DNA from: Halorhabdus utahensis DSM 12940
GTDB lineage: Archaea > Halobacteriota > Halobacteria > Halobacteriales > Haloarculaceae
Assembly: GCF_000023945.1 (NCBI RefSeq)
Contig: NC_013158.1
Span: 2,604,001-2,668,000, forward strand
Direction of reading: 5' to 3'
DNA length: 64,000 nt
Shown here: positions 47-14,306 of the stretch, in pieces
Position numbering within the stretch: the first letter of the stretch is position 1
Layout of the letters: each line of letters starts with the position of its first letter
Notes under the pieces: generated by a model
What the model was told of the DNA's origin: nothing
Seen by the model: the letters and a program-made list of their open reading frames with translations, nothing else
The model's database searches: none
Made by a program: the position numbers and the translations under genes

Positions 47-1168
47 CTACCGAACGGCTGCCGTCGCCGCACTCATCACGTCGATCGCTTCTTTGAGCTG
101 TTCCATGTCGGTCGCGTAGGAGATGCGCGCGTATCCCTCGCCGCCATCGCCGAAGGCCGCTCCGGGCACGACGACGACGCCGCGGTCGATCACTTCCTCG
201 ACCCACCCCTCGGGAACTTCCGGCATCGCGTAGAACGCACCCTTTGGCGTCGGTGTCTGGAGTCCCATGTCTTCGAGGCCATCGAGCAGGACGTTTCGCC
301 GTTCTTCGAAGGCGTCGACCATCTCCCCCACGCGGTCCTGTGGTCCTGAGAGGGCCGCTTCGGCGGCGTACTGAGCCGGGGCGCTCGCACACGCCTGGCC
401 GTACTGATGGACCCGGAGCATGCGCTCGATGCGCTCGTCGCTACCCGTAACCCACCCGAGTCGCCAGCCGGTCATCGAGTAAGCCTTCGAGGCGGCGTTG
501 ATCACGACGACGTTGTCGCTCTCGGCGAACTCGGCCGGCGATCGGTGCTCGCCCTCGAAGACGATGTGTTCGTAGACCTCGTCGGAGATACAGAGCACGT
601 CGTGTTCGTCGGCGATCCGGGCGAACTCACGCATGTCTGCAGGCGACTGGACCGCGCCGGTCGGATTGGCGGGGCTGTTGACCACAAAGGCGGCAGTGTC
701 GTCGGTGATTGCTGCCTCGACGTCGGCGGGGTCGAGCGTCAGATCGTCGCGCAGTTCGACTGGTCTGGGCGTTCCCCCGGCGAGGTGGGTCAGTGCCTCG
801 TAGGAGACAAAGCCCGGATCGGGATAGATGACTTCCTCGTCGGCATCTACGTGGGCTTCTAGGGCGATGTGGAGGGCTTCGCTGCCGCCCGAGGTGGCGA
901 TGACGTTGCCGGGATCGACGTCGAGGTCGTTGTCACGGGCGTGTTTTGCGGCGATGGCCTCCCGAAGTTCCAGCGTGCCCTTGTTGGATGTATAACCGTC
1001 AGCGTCACCGGCGCGGATGGCTTCGACGGCTGCCTCGCGGGCGTGTTCCGGCGCGGGGAAATCCGGTTGGCCAAGCCCGAGGTTGATCGCGTCCTCGCTG
1101 GCTGCCTCGAAGACTTCGCGGATACCTGAAATCGAAACCTGCTCGACGCGATGAGAGAAATCGGGCAT
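47..1168 (-). CDS. Pyridoxal-phosphate aminotransferase, class I/II (AspC-like)
   Basis: A 373-residue fold-type I aminotransferase that would move amino groups between an amino acid and a 2-oxoacid in the cytoplasm. Visible family marks are NSPANPTGA in the middle, the ISDEVYEH strand that contacts the PLP ring, and SKAYSMTGWRLGW, whose Lys should form the Schiff base with PLP. The length is normal and the ATG at 1168 begins a typical N-terminus. It is divergent from the citrate synthase homologue at 1293. The substrate (aspartate, alanine or other) cannot be told from sequence alone. Confidence 0.9.
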   Translation of the reverse strand: MPDFSHRVEQVSISGIREVFEAASEDAINLGLGQPDFPAPEHAREAAVEAIRAGDADGYTSNKGTLELREAIAAKHARDNDLDVDPGNVIATSGGSEALHIALEAHVDADEEVIYPDPGFVSYEALTHLAGGTPRPVELRDDLTLDPADVEAAITDDTAAFVVNSPANPTGAVQSPADMREFARIADEHDVLCISDEVYEHIVFEGEHRSPAEFAESDNVVVINAASKAYSMTGWRLGWVTGSDERIERMLRVHQYGQACASAPAQYAAEAALSGPQDRVGEMVDAFEERRNVLLDGLEDMGLQTPTPKGAFYAMPEVPEGWVEEVIDRGVVVVPGAAFGDGGEGYARISYATDMEQLKEAIDVMSAATAAVR

Positions 1169-1292
1169 ACACGGTTTCCGGACCGCGGGGGCGATAATCC
1201 TTGCTATGATTGGTCCGTCTTCGAAGCCAACTCCGCTGGGGGCAACCGCGAGTCGCCCACAGTTTTACCCCCCGGGCCAGTAGAGGCGGGCA

Positions 1293-2417
1293 ATGAGTGA
1301 CGAGGAGATACACCGCGGACTGGCGGACGTGACGGTCACCGAAACGCGGCTGAGCGACATCGACGGCGAGGCCGGCCAGCTGTGGATCGCGGGGTACCCA
1401 GTCGCAGACCTGGCGGCGAACGCGACCTACCCCGAGACAGTCTATCTGCTGTTGCACGATCGCCTGCCGGACGCCGAGGAACTGCAATCCTTCGAGGATC
1501 GGCTGTGTTCGTACCGGACGCTGCCGGAACCCTGCCACGATGCCGTCGTCGCGGCCGCCCAGCGCGGGGCCGGGCCGATGGCCGCCCTCCGGATGGGCGC
1601 GGCGACAGCCACGGCGGTCGAGCCGAACGATCCCGAGGCCGACGCCCTCCGGTTGATCGCCCGGCTGCCGACGATCACGGCGACCTACTGGCGCGTGCTC
1701 CAGGGCCAGGAACCGCTCGAACCACGGCTCGATCTCGGCCACGCCGCCAACTATCTCTACATGCTGACCGGCGAGGAGCCGACCGATGCCCAGGTCGCGG
1801 GCCTGGAGACGTACCTCTCTACCGTCGTCGATCACGGCCTCAACGCTTCGACGTTCACCGCGCGAACGATCGTCTCGACGGAGTCCGAGCTGGTCTCGGC
1901 GATCACCGGGGCGATCGGCGCGCTGCGGGGGGACCTCCACGGCGGTGCGCCGGACCTGGTTCTGGAGATGCTCGAATCGCTAGAGGAGAGCGAGGATGTC
2001 CGCGGCGAACTCGGGGCGCGGCTCGAAGCCGGGGAACGACTGATGGGCTTTGGCCACCGGGTGTACGGCGCGCGCGACCCGCGAGCGGCAGTCTTAGAGG
2101 ACGCCGCCGCGTCATTTTACGAGGGTGAGGACGATTTCTTCGCCGCGGCCAAAGCAATCGAGGACGTCGCGACCGACCTCCTGGCCGAGCACCGCCCCGA
2201 CCTGGACCTGGAGACGAACGTCGAGTTCTACACCGCCGTCCTGCTCCACGGTGTCGGGATTCCGCCGGAACTGTTCACGCCGACGTTCGCGATCTCGCGG
2301 GTCGCCGGCTGGAGCGCGCACTGTCTCGAACAACTCGAGGACAACCGGCTGATCCGCCCGCGGAGCGAATTCGTCGGCGAGCACGACCGCGGGTGGGTGC
2401 CGCTCGACGAGCGATAA
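1293..2417 (+). CDS. Citrate synthase family protein (CitA-like)
   Basis: A 374-residue member of the citrate/2-methylcitrate synthase family, which condenses acetyl-CoA (or propionyl-CoA) with oxaloacetate. The first catalytic His lies near residue 181 (DHGLNAS) and the second near 255 (GFGHRVYGARDP). The C-terminal core reads GIPPELFTPTFAISRVAGW. The usual catalytic Asp of the NVDxxSG motif is Glu here (NVEFYTA, about residue 311). As I recall, this also occurs in Bacillus CitA-like paralogues, so it may be a secondary synthase rather than the main TCA enzyme. The start lies just after a short A/T-poor leader. Confidence 0.88.
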   Translation: MSDEEIHRGLADVTVTETRLSDIDGEAGQLWIAGYPVADLAANATYPETVYLLLHDRLPDAEELQSFEDRLCSYRTLPEPCHDAVVAAAQRGAGPMAALRMGAATATAVEPNDPEADALRLIARLPTITATYWRVLQGQEPLEPRLDLGHAANYLYMLTGEEPTDAQVAGLETYLSTVVDHGLNASTFTARTIVSTESELVSAITGAIGALRGDLHGGAPDLVLEMLESLEESEDVRGELGARLEAGERLMGFGHRVYGARDPRAAVLEDAAASFYEGEDDFFAAAKAIEDVATDLLAEHRPDLDLETNVEFYTAVLLHGVGIPPELFTPTFAISRVAGWSAHCLEQLEDNRLIRPRSEFVGEHDRGWVPLDER

Positions 2418-2471
2418 CCGCGAGCGGCTCGCTCCACAAACGCTTACTCGGGTGGCCCCGGAAATTCAGGT

Positions 2472-3299
2472 ATGGTCTCCTCAGACTGGGGCGAGTGGCT
2501 GCCGGCTGCCATCGAAAGTACGACTCCGGACGGCGTCGCGATCTGGTATCTGGGTTGCAATGGCTTCGTTCTGAAGGGTGCCGGCGGGACGACGATCTTC
2601 ATCGACCCGTACCTCGGGACGGGCGATCCACCCCGGACGGTGCGGATGATTCCGGTCCCGTTTGATCCCCGGGACGTCCGCGCGGCCGATGCGGTTCTGG
2701 CAACCCACGACCACGTCGATCACGTTCACGGCCGGAGTCAAGCCCCGATTCTCGCCGAGACAGGGGCGGAGTTCTTCGCGCCCGATGCGAGTCTCGCTGT
2801 GACGGACGCGGAGGGATGGACCGACGAGTGGGACGTGGCCGACGACCAGCTGTCCTCGGTGTCGATCGGGGACGAAATCGAGGTCGGTGAGTTTACCATC
2901 CACGTCGCGGACGCGAACGATCCGGACGCCGAGGAACCCGTTTCCTATGTCATCCAACACGAGGCGGGGACGTTCTTCCATGGCGGGGACGCTCGCCCGG
3001 GTGCCTTCGAGTCGGTCGGCGGACGGTTCGACATCGACCTGGGCGTGCTGGCGTTTGGCAGCGTCGGGATGGTGCCCGACGCGATCGGCGAGGAGCCCGT
3101 GCGCACGCGATGGTATAACGACGAGAACATGATCGTCGAAGCCGCCAACGAACTCCAGCTTGATGCGCTGTTGCCCAGCCACTGGGACATGTGGAAGGGG
3201 ATGACGGCAGATCCAACGGCGCTGTACGATCACGTCCGGTCGTTTCCCTACCCGAAACGGCTGGATATCGTCGAGATCGGTGATCGGATCGATATGTAA
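2472..3299 (+). CDS. Metallo-beta-lactamase-fold hydrolase (UlaG-like)
   Basis: A 275-residue MBL-fold protein. The metal-binding HxHxDH-type motif appears as THDHVDHVHG near residue 78. Later ligands are probably the HGGDARPG segment near residue 170 and the SHWDMWKG segment near 240. The arrangement resembles UlaG/L-ascorbate-6-phosphate lactonase-type hydrolases, but nothing nearby suggests ascorbate use. It lies about 55 nt after the citrate synthase homologue on the same strand and may be cotranscribed. The real substrate is unknown. Confidence 0.8.
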   Translation: MVSSDWGEWLPAAIESTTPDGVAIWYLGCNGFVLKGAGGTTIFIDPYLGTGDPPRTVRMIPVPFDPRDVRAADAVLATHDHVDHVHGRSQAPILAETGAEFFAPDASLAVTDAEGWTDEWDVADDQLSSVSIGDEIEVGEFTIHVADANDPDAEEPVSYVIQHEAGTFFHGGDARPGAFESVGGRFDIDLGVLAFGSVGMVPDAIGEEPVRTRWYNDENMIVEAANELQLDALLPSHWDMWKGMTADPTALYDHVRSFPYPKRLDIVEIGDRIDM

Positions 3300-3364
3300 T
3301 ATGAAGGATAGGTCTTCCCGAGCCGGAAGTAACTTTAATACGGTTGGTTAACCCACATATGGGT

Positions 3365-4504
3365 ATGAGCAACACGCAGGCGTACGAGGCGGTGACGGTG
3401 TCGGACGAGGGGGTCACCGTGGTCAAACAGTTCGAAGCCGACGAGTTCCCGGTGCCGGCGATCGCGTTTCGGATCCAGTCTCAACGAATCGAGCCCGTCA
3501 CGGTGCGGCTGCGGGACGACGTGCCGGAAGACGTGGCCGTCGAGGACCTCGGGTTCCACCCCGAGTACGGGAGCGAATACTGGACGATCGATGATGACGA
3601 GATCACCTTCGAACGGGAGATCGACACCGACTCGGAGTACACGACCGTGTACGGGATTCGCGCGACAGGGACCGACGACGTCGAGAAGTTCCTCACCGAA
3701 CCGGAGATCGAATCCGTCGATCCGCCCCTCGAGGACGAGGGTGATCTGGTCGACGACGCCAGTACCGACGTGGTTCGTGACGTCATCGCCGGCGACAGCG
3801 AGAGCGTCCCGGGCCTCGAAGAGACCGACGACGAGGAGATCGAGACGCTCAACCTCGCCGATCCGAACGACTCCGGCGAGACGGCCGATGCGGACTCGAC
3901 TGACGGCGAGGGCGGCGACGATGAGGTCGGCCAGGTCCAGCCCGGATCGGTCGCCAAGACGCTCGCCGCGGAAATCCGCCAGGATGCTGTCGATGACGCG
4001 GCGCTCAGGGTTCTCAAACAGGAGCTCGATCTCGGCGGAGGCGGTGGCGATACCGACGGAAGTGCCGTCGATGCCAGAATTCAGCACCTCCAGAGCGAGA
4101 TGAGCGACCTCGCCGCCTATACGACAGCTCTCGAGGAGTTCTTGGAGGAGAACGGCCAGGGCGAGGAACTCATCGAGGAGTTCCAGGGCCGACTCGAGGA
4201 GTTCCAGGGCGAACTCGACGGCGTGCGCAACGAACTCAATTCGATGTCCGGTGACGTCGACTCGGTCGAACAGACGGCTTCCTCGAACGCCGAAACCGTT
4301 TCGGAACTCGACGAGGAGGTCGACTCTATCGACGAGACGGTCGATAGCCTCGACGAGGAGGTCGATGGGTTGCGCGAGGAGGTCGAAGCGATGTCAGACC
4401 AACTCGGTGAGGACGGCGACCTGGCCGATCGACTCGACAGCGTCGAAAGCGAGATCGAGGAACTCAACGAGTGGCGCGAACAGCTGTCCTCGGTCATCGG
4501 GTGA
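3365..4504 (+). CDS. Acidic coiled-coil protein, function unknown
   Basis: A 379-residue, strongly acidic protein. Residues 1-120 look like a globular beta-rich domain; 120-200 is a low-complexity Asp/Glu/Gly/Ser linker; about 230-379 is heptad-like (repeated SLDEEVDxL-type units), predicting a long coiled coil. No catalytic motif or membrane segment is seen. The ATG at 3365 is chosen over an upstream in-frame ATG at 3344, because that one lies within the TTAATACGG/ACCCACATATG promoter-like stretch. A structural or scaffold role is possible, but I do not recognise the family. Confidence 0.75.
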   Translation: MSNTQAYEAVTVSDEGVTVVKQFEADEFPVPAIAFRIQSQRIEPVTVRLRDDVPEDVAVEDLGFHPEYGSEYWTIDDDEITFEREIDTDSEYTTVYGIRATGTDDVEKFLTEPEIESVDPPLEDEGDLVDDASTDVVRDVIAGDSESVPGLEETDDEEIETLNLADPNDSGETADADSTDGEGGDDEVGQVQPGSVAKTLAAEIRQDAVDDAALRVLKQELDLGGGGGDTDGSAVDARIQHLQSEMSDLAAYTTALEEFLEENGQGEELIEEFQGRLEEFQGELDGVRNELNSMSGDVDSVEQTASSNAETVSELDEEVDSIDETVDSLDEEVDGLREEVEAMSDQLGEDGDLADRLDSVESEIEELNEWREQLSSVIG

Positions 4505-4660
4505 TTTCCGAGAAAACAGTCCAACGCCGCGAACCGCTCGATACTTCGTCGAAACCGCCCCGCCTGCGATCATCCCTCCGTCGATCTCCTTTCCGTTCCT
4601 TTCGGCCCCTCGGCCGTTTCCTTCGAGTGTCAACCGTACGTTCCCGACGAACAGCAGCGG

Positions 4661-5968
4661 TTAGACTGGTTCGCCGAGCATCTCGGCGAGGTCCTCTTCG
4701 GGATCGCCGATCGCCTGAAGCCCGAACTCGTCGTTGAGAATCTCGACGACATCCGGTGTCAGCCATTCCGGGATCGTCGGGCCGATGCGCACGTTCTGAA
4801 TGCCCAGGTCGAACAGCCCGAGCAGGACCGCGACGGCTTTCTGCTCGAACCACGAGAGGACGATGCTGACGGGCAGATCGTTGACGCTACAGTCGAAGGC
4901 CTCCGCCAGCGCTGCCGCGATCTTGACCGTCGAGATGGAGTTGTTACACTGCCCCAGATCGATGAAGCGGGGGATCTCCGTGCCGGGCACCGTGCCGTAT
5001 TCCAGATCGTTGAACCGGAACTTGCCACACCCGGTGGTGAGTACGACGCAGTCGTCGGGCACGCTCTTTGCGAGTTCGCGGTAGTACTCCCGGCCGTCGG
5101 TCGGCGCGTCACAGCCCGCGATGACGAAGAAGTGCCGGAGCTTGCCTTCCTCGACGGCCTCGACGATCTGGGGGGCCATGTCGAGGACGGTCTCGTGGTA
5201 GAAGCCCGTCGAGAGGGTTTCGTCGCTGTTCCACTCCCCAGCGTCCGGTTCGGGGAGTTCCTTGGCGTGTTCGATGACCGGCGAGAAGTCGCCGTCTTCG
5301 AGGTGGGTTGCCTCCTCCAGGCCCGCGACTGTCGTCGTGTAGAACCGATCGGCGTAACTGCCGGACGGCGGCATCAGGCAGTTCGAGGTCCCGACGATCG
5401 CCCCGGGGAACTCACGGAAGAGGTCCTGCTGGTCGAACCACGCTTCCCCGACGTTGCCCTTGAGGTGGTCGTACTTCGCAAGTTCGGGGTAGCCGTGGCC
5501 GGGCAGCATCTCCGAGTGGGTGTAGACGTTGACGCCTTCGCCCTCGGACTGTTCGAGCAGCTCCTTCAGGGCGTAGAGGTCGTGACCGGTGACGACGATC
5601 GACTTGCCCGCAACCTGGTTCTCGGGCACTTCGGCGGGTTCGGGGGTGCCGAGCGTTTCGGTGTGGGCGTCGTCGAGCAACTCCATCGCGTCGATGGCGG
5701 CCGACCCCAGGTCCAGGGCCTGGCCGATGGTCTCGTCCATGTCGAAGTTGACGTTTGTCAGTGTGTGGAACAACGTCTCATGGACGGTCGCGTCGACGCT
5801 CTCGTCGACGTATCCCATCTCGCGGGCGTGGTGGGCGTACGCGGAGACGCCTTTCGCCCCCAGGATCATCGTCTCCTGTAAACTGTCCAGATTCGGGTCC
5901 TTGCCGCACACGCCGGCGGTCGTACACCCGCCGTCTAACGTCTGCTCGCACTGCAGGCAGTCCATCAT
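4661..5968 (-). CDS. hcp: Hybrid cluster protein / hydroxylamine reductase, short (class III-like) form
   Basis: About 435 residues. Hcp proteins carry a cubane Fe-S cluster and a hybrid Fe-S-O cluster, and reduce NO or hydroxylamine under nitrosative, anaerobic conditions. The N-terminal motif CLQCEQTLDGGCTTAGVCG gives C-x2-C-x7-C-x5-C. Later cluster ligands are visible in GTSNCLMPP, AGCDAPT, TTGCGKFRFND and LGQCNNS. The chain is about 110 residues shorter than E. coli Hcp, as in class III archaeal Hcps. The start at 5968 (an alternative ATG is the next codon) is favoured because a TTTATA box lies about 25 nt upstream, inside the longer open frame. Confidence 0.93.
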   Translation of the reverse strand: MMDCLQCEQTLDGGCTTAGVCGKDPNLDSLQETMILGAKGVSAYAHHAREMGYVDESVDATVHETLFHTLTNVNFDMDETIGQALDLGSAAIDAMELLDDAHTETLGTPEPAEVPENQVAGKSIVVTGHDLYALKELLEQSEGEGVNVYTHSEMLPGHGYPELAKYDHLKGNVGEAWFDQQDLFREFPGAIVGTSNCLMPPSGSYADRFYTTTVAGLEEATHLEDGDFSPVIEHAKELPEPDAGEWNSDETLSTGFYHETVLDMAPQIVEAVEEGKLRHFFVIAGCDAPTDGREYYRELAKSVPDDCVVLTTGCGKFRFNDLEYGTVPGTEIPRFIDLGQCNNSISTVKIAAALAEAFDCSVNDLPVSIVLSWFEQKAVAVLLGLFDLGIQNVRIGPTIPEWLTPDVVEILNDEFGLQAIGDPEEDLAEMLGEPV

Positions 5969-5998: not shown

Positions 5999-6162
5999 CA
6001 CGGTCCAGTAACTCCCCGCTGTCCGGGAACGCGGTCGAAGATGTTCGCACCATTCGTTTATATACGGTGTCCTGTTGTCAACGATTCACGGCAGGAAATC
6101 AGCATCCGTCCAGAACCATGGACGTTCTTGTAAAATAATGCTGTTTCTGGGTCGTGGGTCGT

Positions 6163-7152
6163 TCAGACCAGATCAGCGGGCGGCCCGCCGGGAAGTTCGT
6201 CCCGGTCGTGGGGTGCCTCAAAGTCGGGAGCGGGTCCTTTGGGCACGATCCGCTTGGGGCTGACGTCCGGGTGGGTCGTGTAGTAGTGCTCTTTGATGTG
6301 GTCGATGTCCACTGTCTCGGCGACGCCATCCGTCGTATAAACATCCCGCAGGTACGGCCAGAGGTTGTCGTATTCGGCGATCAGCTTGTGGTTGCACATG
6401 AAGTGCGTGTGATAGACCTCGTCGAAGCGCACCAGCGTGGTGAACATCGCGATATCGGCTTCGGTCAGTCGATCGCCGGCGAGGTAGCGCTGGTCTTCGA
6501 GCACCGAGTCCCAGTGATCGAGGGCGTCGAACAGCTCCTCGACCGCCTCGTCGTAGGCGGCCTGGGAGTCGGCGAATCCGGCCTTGTAGACGCCGTTGTT
6601 GATCGGCTCGTAGATGGCCTCGATGATTTCGTCGATGTCCTCCTGGTAGCCCTCGGGATAGAGATCGACGTCGTGCTCGGCGACATCGTCGAATTCGGTG
6701 TCGAGCATCCGCATGATTTCGGCGGATTCGTTGTTGACGATCGTCTCCTCCTGTTTGTCCCAGAGAACTGGGACAGTCACCCGGCCGGTCATGTCGGGGT
6801 CGGCCTCGACGTAGACCTCCCGGAGGTAGTCGCTCCCGTTGACCGTGTCCGGCGTACAGCCGTCCTTCTCGGGGGTGAACTGCCAGCCGTCCTCGCCGCG
6901 GTAGGGGTCGACGTAGTCGACCGTGATCGCGTCTTCAAGCCCCTTCAGCGCGCGTGTGACCAGCGTCCGGTGGGCCCAGGGACAGGCCCGGCAAACGTAG
7001 AGGTGATACCTGCCGGCCTCGGGCTGGAACCGCGCGTCCGGATCGTCCTCGATACGATCCCGAAAGGAAGTCGTCCCGCGTTCGAACGCGCCATCCTCGT
7101 TGGTTGTCTGGTAGGCGTCGGTGCGCCACTCCCCGTCGACGAGCATATTCAT
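6163..7152 (-). CDS. Glutathionyl-hydroquinone reductase-type glutathione transferase (YqjG/ECM4 family)
   Basis: A 329-residue Xi-class GST homologue. These enzymes reduce S-glutathionylated quinones through an N-terminal Cys. The signature [11 protein letters not shown] lies near residue 60, followed by a C-terminal helical domain with [15 protein letters not shown]. The length matches the family. Haloarchaea use gamma-glutamylcysteine rather than glutathione, so the physiological thiol is probably different. The ATG at 7152 was chosen (another is at 7146); the open frame continues upstream only through the L10e promoter region. It is divergent from rpl10e. Confidence 0.88.
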
Positions 7153-12136: not shown

Positions 12137-12150
12137 GGTGCCGATCGTAC
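12137..12150 (+). repeat. 14-bp direct repeat, left copy
   Basis: GGTGCCGATCGTAC. An identical copy is at 14293-14306. The repeats bracket the lower-GC island and sit immediately outside inverted repeats, as target-site duplications of a mobile element would. Confidence 0.65.
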
Positions 12151-12385
12151 CGTGTCATAGAAACAGCTACTCCCGATCGACTGCGGTGCCACCAGGCGTG
12201 AAAATACCAGTTTAGAAATACTTACAGAAGGCTGTGAGAGATATAGAGGATGTAGTTAGCAGTCGACTATTGTTGATATCACACCGATCTTGATGAACCA
12301 GCTGCTCTGTGTGCCTGCGCACTTAGCTCGCTCCTATCACCGAAATTCAGCGAGGATCGCGTTATGGACTCGGTTCTTGAAGTGA

Positions 12386-13123
12386 TCAGGCACCGTCTCC
12401 AGATACGTTCGCCGGGGCGCTGCCATCACTGGAATTACTCCTGAGTGCCGATGGCGAATAGTCTCTCGAAACAAACACTAATTGGATACTATCGATGGCT
12501 GTTGCTCCCAAAACTTCCTCTTTGATCTGGTCATCAGCGAACTCTGCTGGATTGGTTGTCGCTAGCTCTGTTTCTCCCGGCATGTTTGCGGCGACATCGT
12601 GAGCGTCGATTACAATCCAGAAATCTTCCTCGTCTTGAGCCCGGAGCTGAGTCAATTCGTCCTGTACCGATTCGTGCGAACTAATCCTCAGCCAGCCTTG
12701 GAACGTTGCGTAGAGCGTCTCCTTTCGCGCCTCGGCTCGCTGTTCCATCTCACGAATCACCTCCCGCAATTCATCAGTGACCTCGTAGACACCTCTTCCG
12801 GCTTTATCGTCGTAGAAATCCTCTAAATACCTCCATGCCGAATTTTCATCCCGGTCAATTTCCGACTGAATCTCCTCGATATCACTCTCACTTAGTTCCC
12901 CCTGGTAATTGACCTTCACCTGTTGGATGTTCCGGAGAACCTGGCTCCGGTGCTCATCGATAATTGAGTCCTTCGCATTTCGGAAGATATTCTCAACCTG
13001 TTCCGTAACGAAATACTCTGTGTCGCCATTAAACAAGTACCTCCTACATTCTCTGTGGTGGGGATCAGTAAAGAAACAGAAACCGAGGATGACTCCCTTG
13101 TCAAGGAAGGCGTTGTCCGCCAT
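12386..13123 (-). CDS. PIN-like domain protein, candidate toxin/nuclease (probably frameshifted at its C-terminus)
   Basis: 245 residues as read. The N-terminus FLDKGVILGFCFF, with an early Asp, and the later WIVIDAHD near residue 170 resemble the acidic metal-binding positions of PIN-like nucleases. VFVSRDY near 220 resembles the last beta-strand and acidic residue of the fold. After that point the frame becomes Ser/Ala/Gly-rich. Another frame continues to a stop at 12337 and reads HSGVIPVMAAPRRTYLE, which fits a PIN C-terminus much better. One surplus base around 12457 (an AA pair) explains this. The partner gene ends one base upstream. Toxin function is inferred from fold and pairing only. 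Confidence 0.6.
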   Translation of the reverse strand: MADNAFLDKGVILGFCFFTDPHHRECRRYLFNGDTEYFVTEQVENIFRNAKDSIIDEHRSQVLRNIQQVKVNYQGELSESDIEEIQSEIDRDENSAWRYLEDFYDDKAGRGVYEVTDELREVIREMEQRAEARKETLYATFQGWLRISSHESVQDELTQLRAQDEEDFWIVIDAHDVAANMPGETELATTNPAEFADDQIKEEVLGATAIDSIQLVFVSRDYSPSALRSNSSDGSAPANVSGDGA

Positions 13124-13124
13124 T

Positions 13125-14057
13125 CTATAGTTCGTCTAGCTCCTCAGAAATAGTCATATTGTACGAATCAGCGACGCTGTCCAAAGCCGAGGTGGACTGT
13201 CTTTCTGAGAGGGCTCTCTTCCGCTTCTGTGTTACCCGGCTTTGGAGATCTCTGCGCACTTTTTCCTTCTCTTCACGCCAGTCTTCGAGCGCCTCTGAAT
13301 CAATATTCGAGTGTTCCTCGAATCGGAGAATGATTCGTGTGGCCCCTTCGATGAAGGCCTCTGTGAAGTCATGGAGTTCTCTCGGGCTTCGCCCGATATC
13401 GACCAACAGGCGTATCGTGTCGTCCCAATCAAGGTAGATTTCGTGGATTTCCGAGTAACGCTCCGCGTCGAAATTCGCCAGCATCTCATCCAGGAGCTCT
13501 TCGATGTGGGTCTTCTCATCGGGGGTGACGAATTGACTCAGCCTGTGCTGATCTTCGTCTTGGGAAACCGTGTTTAAGTACCACCGCAAATCAGCATATG
13601 CGATAACGAAATCGTCGGGCGCAAAGTTCTGATACTGATACTCTTCCAGTTCCTCAGCTGTTTTGTCGCCGTGTTCAGTGACTACAGATTGAACCGCGTT
13701 GTATATGTCGTCTTTGAGGTCTTCCGACAGGTGGTCGAAGTCGGATTCATTGACTTGCTCGGCCGGATAGTACGCCTGTCCACCGAAGTGATTCGCGTTG
13801 GGCCTGTACGTGACCGCTGAATTCAGATGAGCTTCGGAGATGGTCCGGCCGTACTTGTACCAGTACTTCGGCAGACCGACTTCCCGGTCGTATTCCTGCG
13901 CTAACAGCCGATCAGCTAAACAGCAAAGTTTGTGGATGCGGGTCCGCCCCGTCTCACGGCCGTCCTGCTCGTGACGTTCCGCAGCCACCCGATACAGAAG
14001 ATACTCCGGCGGCCCCAAGTCACCGAACTCATCATCCGCCGGTGGCGACTCGGACAT
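13125..14057 (-). CDS. Panacea/DUF4065-like protein, candidate antitoxin
   Basis: A 310-residue protein. Residues 35-90 (TRIHKLCCLADRLLAQEY, then GLPKYWYKYGRTISEAHL) recall the Panacea/SocA-type domain, with its KL..LAD helix and YxYGxxS loop, which serves as antitoxin in many two-gene systems. The C-terminal third is charged and helical (EEKEKVRRDLQSRV). The start at 14057 is taken because an A/T-rich TTATTTTGTA lies about 30 nt upstream; an in-frame ATG at 14090 is less well placed. It precedes the PIN-like gene by one base, so the two should be translationally linked. The family assignment is tentative. Confidence 0.55.
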   Translation of the reverse strand: MSESPPADDEFGDLGPPEYLLYRVAAERHEQDGRETGRTRIHKLCCLADRLLAQEYDREVGLPKYWYKYGRTISEAHLNSAVTYRPNANHFGGQAYYPAEQVNESDFDHLSEDLKDDIYNAVQSVVTEHGDKTAEELEEYQYQNFAPDDFVIAYADLRWYLNTVSQDEDQHRLSQFVTPDEKTHIEELLDEMLANFDAERYSEIHEIYLDWDDTIRLLVDIGRSPRELHDFTEAFIEGATRIILRFEEHSNIDSEALEDWREEKEKVRRDLQSRVTQKRKRALSERQSTSALDSVADSYNMTISEELDEL

Positions 14058-14292
14058 TCGTCTTGTTTGGCTTATAGAATCCGGGTACAAAATAACTGAC
14101 GCTGTGATTACTTCCTGAATTCAGACTGGCCACCCCTAAGAAACCATCATGAATAGGACCAACCGCTCTACTGACCGATTCGGCAGCCCAACGAATGCCA
14201 GAGAGTCACTGCTGAATATGCGCGTTGTATCTTGCACGGAAGTCTTGACAAGGCCTGGATAGGGAGAGCGCGCGAAACTTGCTATGACACGC

Positions 14293-14306
14293 GGTGCCGA
14301 TCGTAC
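14293..14306 (+). repeat. 14-bp direct repeat, right copy
   Basis: GGTGCCGATCGTAC, identical to 12137-12150. One base (C) separates it from the right inverted repeat. It lies 17 nt from the 3' end of the trmB-family gene. Confidence 0.65.

Follow-up and report, generated by a model that had tools for sequence, protein, structure and literature searches.

A stretch of 64,000 nucleotides from Halorhabdus utahensis DSM 12940 (NC_013158.1, positions 2,604,001 to 2,668,000; hereafter the window) contains an island of ~2.1 kb with two genes, located between two 14-bp repeats. The flanking genes are pgk on the forward strand and a gene for a TrmB-type regulator on the reverse strand, which converge on the island. 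G+C is 0.47-0.57 within the island vs 0.60-0.72 in the flanking genes (300-base windows). The identical 14-mers, the lower G+C and the convergent core genes had been noticed in a first-pass annotation made from the sequence alone, and they are present as described (Table 1). The same annotation placed inverted repeats immediately inside the 14-mers. The inverted repeat CGTGTCATAG(AAA) is at 12151-12163 and 14279-14291 and is 92% complementary across 13 positions; its left arm abuts the 14-mer, but its right arm is set off by one additional C (14292). A chance origin was considered unlikely from the start. The probability that two given positions share an exact 14-bp repeat next to both arms is ~4^-14, and the ends are conserved in other genomes; both points agree with this view. 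The island is mobile DNA, and it appears to belong to a haloarchaeal family of two-level elements, in which a transposon-like frame carries an exchangeable cassette.

Table 1. Features of the island. Positions are those of the window.
Feature	Positions	Strand	Description
14-bp direct repeat, left copy	12137-12150		GGTGCCGATCGTAC; candidate target duplication
Left end, conserved, ~110 bp	12151-12262	+	Terminus CGTGTCATAGAAA; recurs in other genomes
Left core site	12234-12262 (spacer 12245-12251)	+	GTGAGAGATAT-AGAGGAT-GTAGTTAGCAG; from sequence reading
Cargo gene 2, 245 amino acids	12386-13123	-	No known family; acidic positions resemble PIN by eye only
Cargo gene 1, 310 amino acids	13125-14057	-	No known family; relatives in Halobacterium, Halorussus and Halococcus plasmids
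Right end, conserved, ~85 bp	14209-14292	-	Terminus (reverse complement) GCGTGTCATAG; recurs in other genomes
Right core site	14209-14237 (spacer 14220-14226)	-	Reverse complement GTGCAAGATAC-AACGCGC-ATATTCAGCAG
Imperfect palindrome	14241-14255		Adjoins right core; family form AGTCTTGTCAAGACT
14-bp direct repeat, right copy	14293-14306		GGTGCCGATCGTAC; identical to left copy

In a nucleotide search of 39 relatives, two stretches of the island came up in genomes that do not have the cargo of the window: the final 77 bp ahead of the right repeat, and as much as ~115 bp following the left repeat. The right-end model matches 86 and the left-end model 57 of 146 genomes of the same family at E ≤ 0.001. 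In an order-wide sample of 392 genomes at E ≤ 1e-6, the right end was found in 64 and the left end in 44. Right-end matches were absent from phage records. The pairing of ends covered 105 right-end and 95 left-end hits, with some weak hits omitted. Among the hits listed, there are 59 correctly facing pairs, with a length of 0.24-5.4 kb, and no same-strand pair within 6 kb; all 59 facing pairs were fetched as loci. G+C is below that of the flanks in 57 of 60 element rows, three rows being duplicates. Beside the termini of 44 clean elements, position -2 is A in 39, position -1 is G in 35, and position +1 is T in 35. This pattern makes AGCGTGTCATAGAAA the probable terminus of the family at either end.

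Some further ends were observed. The window genome has more right ends for which no left partner was detected (L026 2445-2530, L148 8150-8235 and L149 7878-7962, the last two weak). At the right edge of L057 and L058, a second terminus-like sequence, TCATAGAAACAA, directly follows the right end, as if elements were in tandem. In Natronomonas pharaonis, the same 525-bp element is present in a chromosome contig (L049) and in plasmid PL23 (L126). The 400-bp flanks are identical on both sides, indicating that the chromosome contig contains a second copy of part of PL23. Plasmid PL47 of Haloquadratum walsbyi (L273) has a left end at 5001-5118 followed by a serine-recombinase (resolvase) gene at 6067-6723, and no right end was found there.

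Insertion is supported by flanking repeats and by empty alleles. The direct-repeat analysis covered 44 elements, after 16 of the 60 paired loci with incomplete ends or duplicates were left out. Direct repeats of at least 6 bp flank 16 of them, including the window copy, vs 4.7% of mismatched flank pairs. At the sister site occupied by the element L080, each of the 11 loci inspected in further genomes of the same genus is empty, with the flanks 5-13 bp apart. In the filled alleles, the left copy reads AAGGGTT and the right copy AAGAGTT, a duplication of 7 bp in which one base is changed. The island had been described as a non-autonomous cargo element, and a search for other copies of its ends with variable flanks had been proposed. 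Such copies are found across other haloarchaeal genomes, and together with the empty alleles they bear out this description. An empty allele of the pgk-trmB spacer itself was not found: all eight fetched pgk loci of relatives (L002-L009) lack the 14-mer on both strands. The trmB-like matches in relatives are located elsewhere than beside pgk. In a genus search with L096, a multicopy stretch inside the element dominated the matches, and no empty allele was read.

Inside each end, there is a 29-bp core site, composed of the 11-bp arm GTGCAAGATAY, a 7-bp spacer and an 11-bp inner arm. The two sites face each other and are not identical, with the spacer AGAGNNT on the left and NNNGCGC on the right. 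Spacers were counted in 62 of 75 paired elements, the other 13 having a core arm with more than three mismatches. The left spacer starts with AGAG in 49 and ends with GCGC in one, and the right spacer ends with GCGC in 45 and starts with AGAG in six. With at most one mismatch, the core pattern has 100 matches in 27 of the 39 relatives vs one match for the reversed pattern. Many core sites adjoin outer sequences other than those of the window family, and 18 of 33 neighboring core pairs in L168-L206 are facing left-right pairs. A search of 84,980 species genomes with the strict left-site pattern gave 19 stretches, every one titled as haloarchaeal, and viral contigs contained no exact core match. 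Next to cores in L168-L183, at least four further types of outer end were distinguished by eye, each with termini common to its members.

The core sites mark the position where related elements stop resembling one another. At five genomic sites, elements have their flanks and outer ends in common (outer identity 79-100%), and their interiors are unrelated (54-61%). The averages of random pairs are 70 and 72% for the outer ends and 58% for the interior. The change from the conserved outer part to the unrelated interior falls at the core sites. It is seen at a plasmid site occupied by L054, L130, L131 and L123, where the flanks are 90-100% identical, the outer ends 93-100% up to the spacer, and the inner parts 54-61%. 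The outer ends are 99 and 96% identical in L021/L127, 90 and 93% in L080/L102, 81 and 86% in L087/L089, and 84 and 79% in L091/L093.

The converse arrangement is seen in Halovenus salina. L082 and L083, at two places in one genome of this species, are 100% identical in the inner part, with 66 and 77% identity in the outer ends and 58 and 61% in the flanks. Their identity begins at the left spacer and ends after GCGC in the right spacer; the switch is inside both spacers. One cassette thus sits in two diverged frames. When plasmids were searched with four elements, the L089 allele turned up once more, in Haloarcula hispanica, and no new case of a cassette in two frames was found.

It is likely, with a probability of roughly two in three, that the family consists of two-level mobile elements, each with a transposon-like frame and an exchangeable cassette. 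At the outer level, the frame with the terminal inverted repeats AGCGTGTCATAGAAA would insert and generate the target duplication, moved by an enzyme acting in trans. At the inner level, the cargo cassette would be bounded by two facing, non-identical 29-bp cores (11-7-11). Strand exchange between two elements would occur left with left and right with right, for example through a plasmid cointegrate followed by resolution, so that the cassette is swapped and the frame stays in place. The enzyme would likely be a tyrosine recombinase supplied in trans. Natural recombinase-mediated cassette exchange of this kind fits both the same-site swaps and the switch in the spacer. The sequences themselves show the ends, the cores, the insertion at the sister site and the position of the switch, as well as a frame that carries different cassettes and a cassette that occurs in different frames. 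We infer the enzyme and the cointegrate from this pattern, and the window copy may still be able to exchange its cassette. A broader proposal, which we consider about evenly balanced, is that a native cassette exchange operates across the class of haloarchaea, with non-interchangeable 11-7-11 sites, several unrelated frames, swaps between replicons and tyrosine recombinases in trans.

An ordinary transposase-free derivative of an insertion sequence (IS), or mobile insertion cassette, is the strongest alternative, and we regard it as unlikely. A transposase acting in trans would then move the unit as a whole, and the differences at the same site would have arisen by homologous recombination in the ends, with no dedicated recombinase. 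The terminal inverted repeats and target duplications are as expected for such a derivative, and the haloarchaeal ends are long enough to serve as short homologies. However, the outer ends of L082 and L083 are at random similarity, yet the switch is inside the 7-bp spacer at both ends. At the plasmid site, the near-identity of the outer ends continues up to the spacer. Cores also adjoin other outer sequences, and no insertion sequence with the family termini was found. Independent insertion of different elements into one hot spot, with no exchange, would account for several elements at the same site, but it is improbable. Outer ends at the same site are far closer than random pairs (e.g., 97 and 99% vs 70 and 72%) and therefore descend from one insertion, and L082/L083 is left unexplained. 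A casposon or casposon remnant is the least probable of all: casposon target duplications are 14-15 bp, which the 14-bp repeat of the window resembles, but the duplication at the sister site is 7 bp and, consistent with the doubt raised at first over the missing cas1, neither cargo protein of the window has a Pfam match over the cut-off and none of 50 other scanned proteins, a few of unknown family apart, has a Cas1 match.

Several observations weigh against the two-level reading. No direct repeat of 6 bp is present in 28 of the 44 elements. A sixth same-site candidate, L055/L076, has outer ends of 64 and 70% identity, which is the random level. The left junction of L021/L127 is uninformative because a nested IS lies within the inner arm of the L021 left core. 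Only L082/L083 clearly shows a cassette shared by two frames, and a more diverged pair, L089/L134, has no contrast between inner and outer parts. The window copy itself is atypical: its 14-bp repeat directly abuts CGTG...CACGC, the family AG/T is missing beside its termini, and the outer arm of its left core differs from the family consensus at three positions.

The enzymes supply evidence on both sides. In favor of the reading, three genomes have a PF00589 tyrosine recombinase gene immediately outside a left-type core: L171 (G020), L177 (G001) and L182 (G008). In L171 and L177, it has ~200 codons and ends ~100 bp before the left-type core, on the same strand and outside the cassette; GLR, K, HDLRR and PY are conserved between the two. 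L182 has a different PF00589 gene, which ends 124 bp before the left-type core. At E ≤ 1e-12, 117 of 146 family genomes contain a match to the short type. Against the reading, this search found no short type in the window genome, where five other PF00589 matches are present. Of the 30 loci fetched for the short recombinase, only the two query loci have this core within 1.5 kb, and a general link between the core and this recombinase was dropped. Due to this distribution and the lack of a short-type match in the window genome, a trans-supplied tyrosine recombinase as the swap enzyme is a reasoned guess.

Two side observations were made at recombinase loci. L177 contains, at 288-4638, the recombinase gene, a left core and two right-type cores (2043-2071 and 4610-4638), possibly an array of two cassettes. 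Other 11+7+11 inverted repeats were recognized by eye downstream of related short recombinases, ~84 bp after the match (L210, L212, L215, L221 and L225), as if each of these recombinases had its own site.

For the frame, the first-pass annotation had suggested looking for a related transposase. None shared by the whole family turned up among the copies examined, which counts against the two-level reading. Transposases inside copies lie in nested insertions, and those nested insertions with readable ends carry termini other than the family's. The IS1182-like transposase of L021 was rejected as the element's own enzyme: its gene is in the nested IS, whose relatives have their own ends, TGACGGCACCGTAGAAAGG. 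IS5-type DDE genes (L097, L101 and L127) were likewise rejected. Three of the five copies tested (L097, one in L101 and one in L127) have their own flanking inverted repeats, and the other two have no convincing pair.

The cargo differs in most copies, and the interiors are mostly unrelated to one another. In a survey that includes elements with one weak end, Pfam matches were found to HIT, HalOD1, globin, pilin, DNA methylase, BAT/HTH_10 regulator and TrkA families. Others were to Mrr-, AspBHI- and DpnII-type endonucleases, a PemK (PemK/MazF-type) toxin, an Eco57I-type methylase and a glycosyltransferase. A good part of the scanned proteins have no Pfam match. As the cargo includes restriction enzymes, a toxin, methyltransferases, globin, pilin, regulators and a TrkA-type protein, accessory functions would be spread by this system.

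Cargo genes 1 and 2 of the window are also neighbors in Halobacterium hubeiense (44% and 36% identity), and Halococcus dombrowskii has adjacent relatives of both (27% and 25%). Neither family ends nor cores were found around these two module loci, and no relative of cargo gene 1 was found in viral contigs. The label PIN/Panacea-like given to the pair at first is not sustained. A Panacea (SocA-type) antitoxin with a PIN toxin is not supported, as the proteins match no profile or structure in Pfam, NCBIfam, PADLOC or PDB. Single-sequence structure predictions were of low confidence (mean predicted local distance difference test score, pLDDT, 51 and 42) and were not used. A toxin-antitoxin function is possible. 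An exact 16-bp inverted repeat (12646-12661 and 13527-13542) has one arm in each cargo gene; it may be due to chance or form a transcript stem.

The two internal 11-7-11 sites and the swapping of cassettes go beyond the first-pass annotation. Among the papers listed by open-access full-text searches, no title or abstract start describes such a system; subscription papers and ISfinder were outside the search. Mobile insertion cassettes and miniature inverted-repeat transposable elements (MITEs) likewise have terminal inverted repeats, target duplication and passenger genes without a transposase. The haloarchaeal family differs from them in that its cargo switches at internal sites, and no parent IS was found. 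The PATEs and SMRs of Haloquadratum are also transposase-free haloarchaeal repeats, with palindromes near their ends. According to the available text of PMC3119063, PATEs have no terminal inverted repeats and no duplication, and SMRs are ~80-110 bp and have no duplication. In contrast, the window family has terminal inverted repeats and target duplication and carries genes.

The accessible part of the same paper reports 64 deletion-coupled insertions in Haloquadratum, in which unrelated sequences occupy identical positions by a mechanism called not yet described (PMC3119063). Sequence conservation at those positions is absent according to this text, whereas ends and cores are conserved here. 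The core-site system might explain part of these insertions, for which it supplies a concrete, testable mechanism and a pattern to search for.

Integron cassettes are similarly mobile and carry diverse genes, and three haloarchaeal loci have a tyrosine recombinase gene beside a cassette-boundary site. The haloarchaeal cassette differs in having a site at each end. No attC-like site was seen by eye in the haloarchaeal elements, and no tool-based attC search was made. Archaeal integrons have been named in other archaeal phyla, and the terms halobacter and haloarchae are absent from the paper text available (PMC9668308).

The closest working likeness appears to be the dif modules of Acinetobacter plasmids. 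As described in the available text, these modules consist of single genes or pairs of genes flanked by sites in inverse orientation, each site with two recombinase arms and a short spacer; single modules are replaced via cointegrate formation and resolution, which needs matching spacers on each side (PMC13141974). The haloarchaeal cargo is also located between inversely oriented two-arm sites. The spacer is 7 bp instead of 6, and the arms GTGCAAGATAY are unrelated to the pdif sites printed in that paper. The haloarchaeal sites are further distinguished by two spacer types, transposon-like frames and an archaeal host. Archaeal dif sites are given as 11-nt repeats with a 6-nt spacer in the text of PMC8371274, and the text of PMC7776575 lists 12 xerC/D-like genes in Haloferax volcanii and leaves their role in termination open. 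If the broader, class-wide reading is true, this cassette exchange would give archaea a counterpart to integrons and dif modules.
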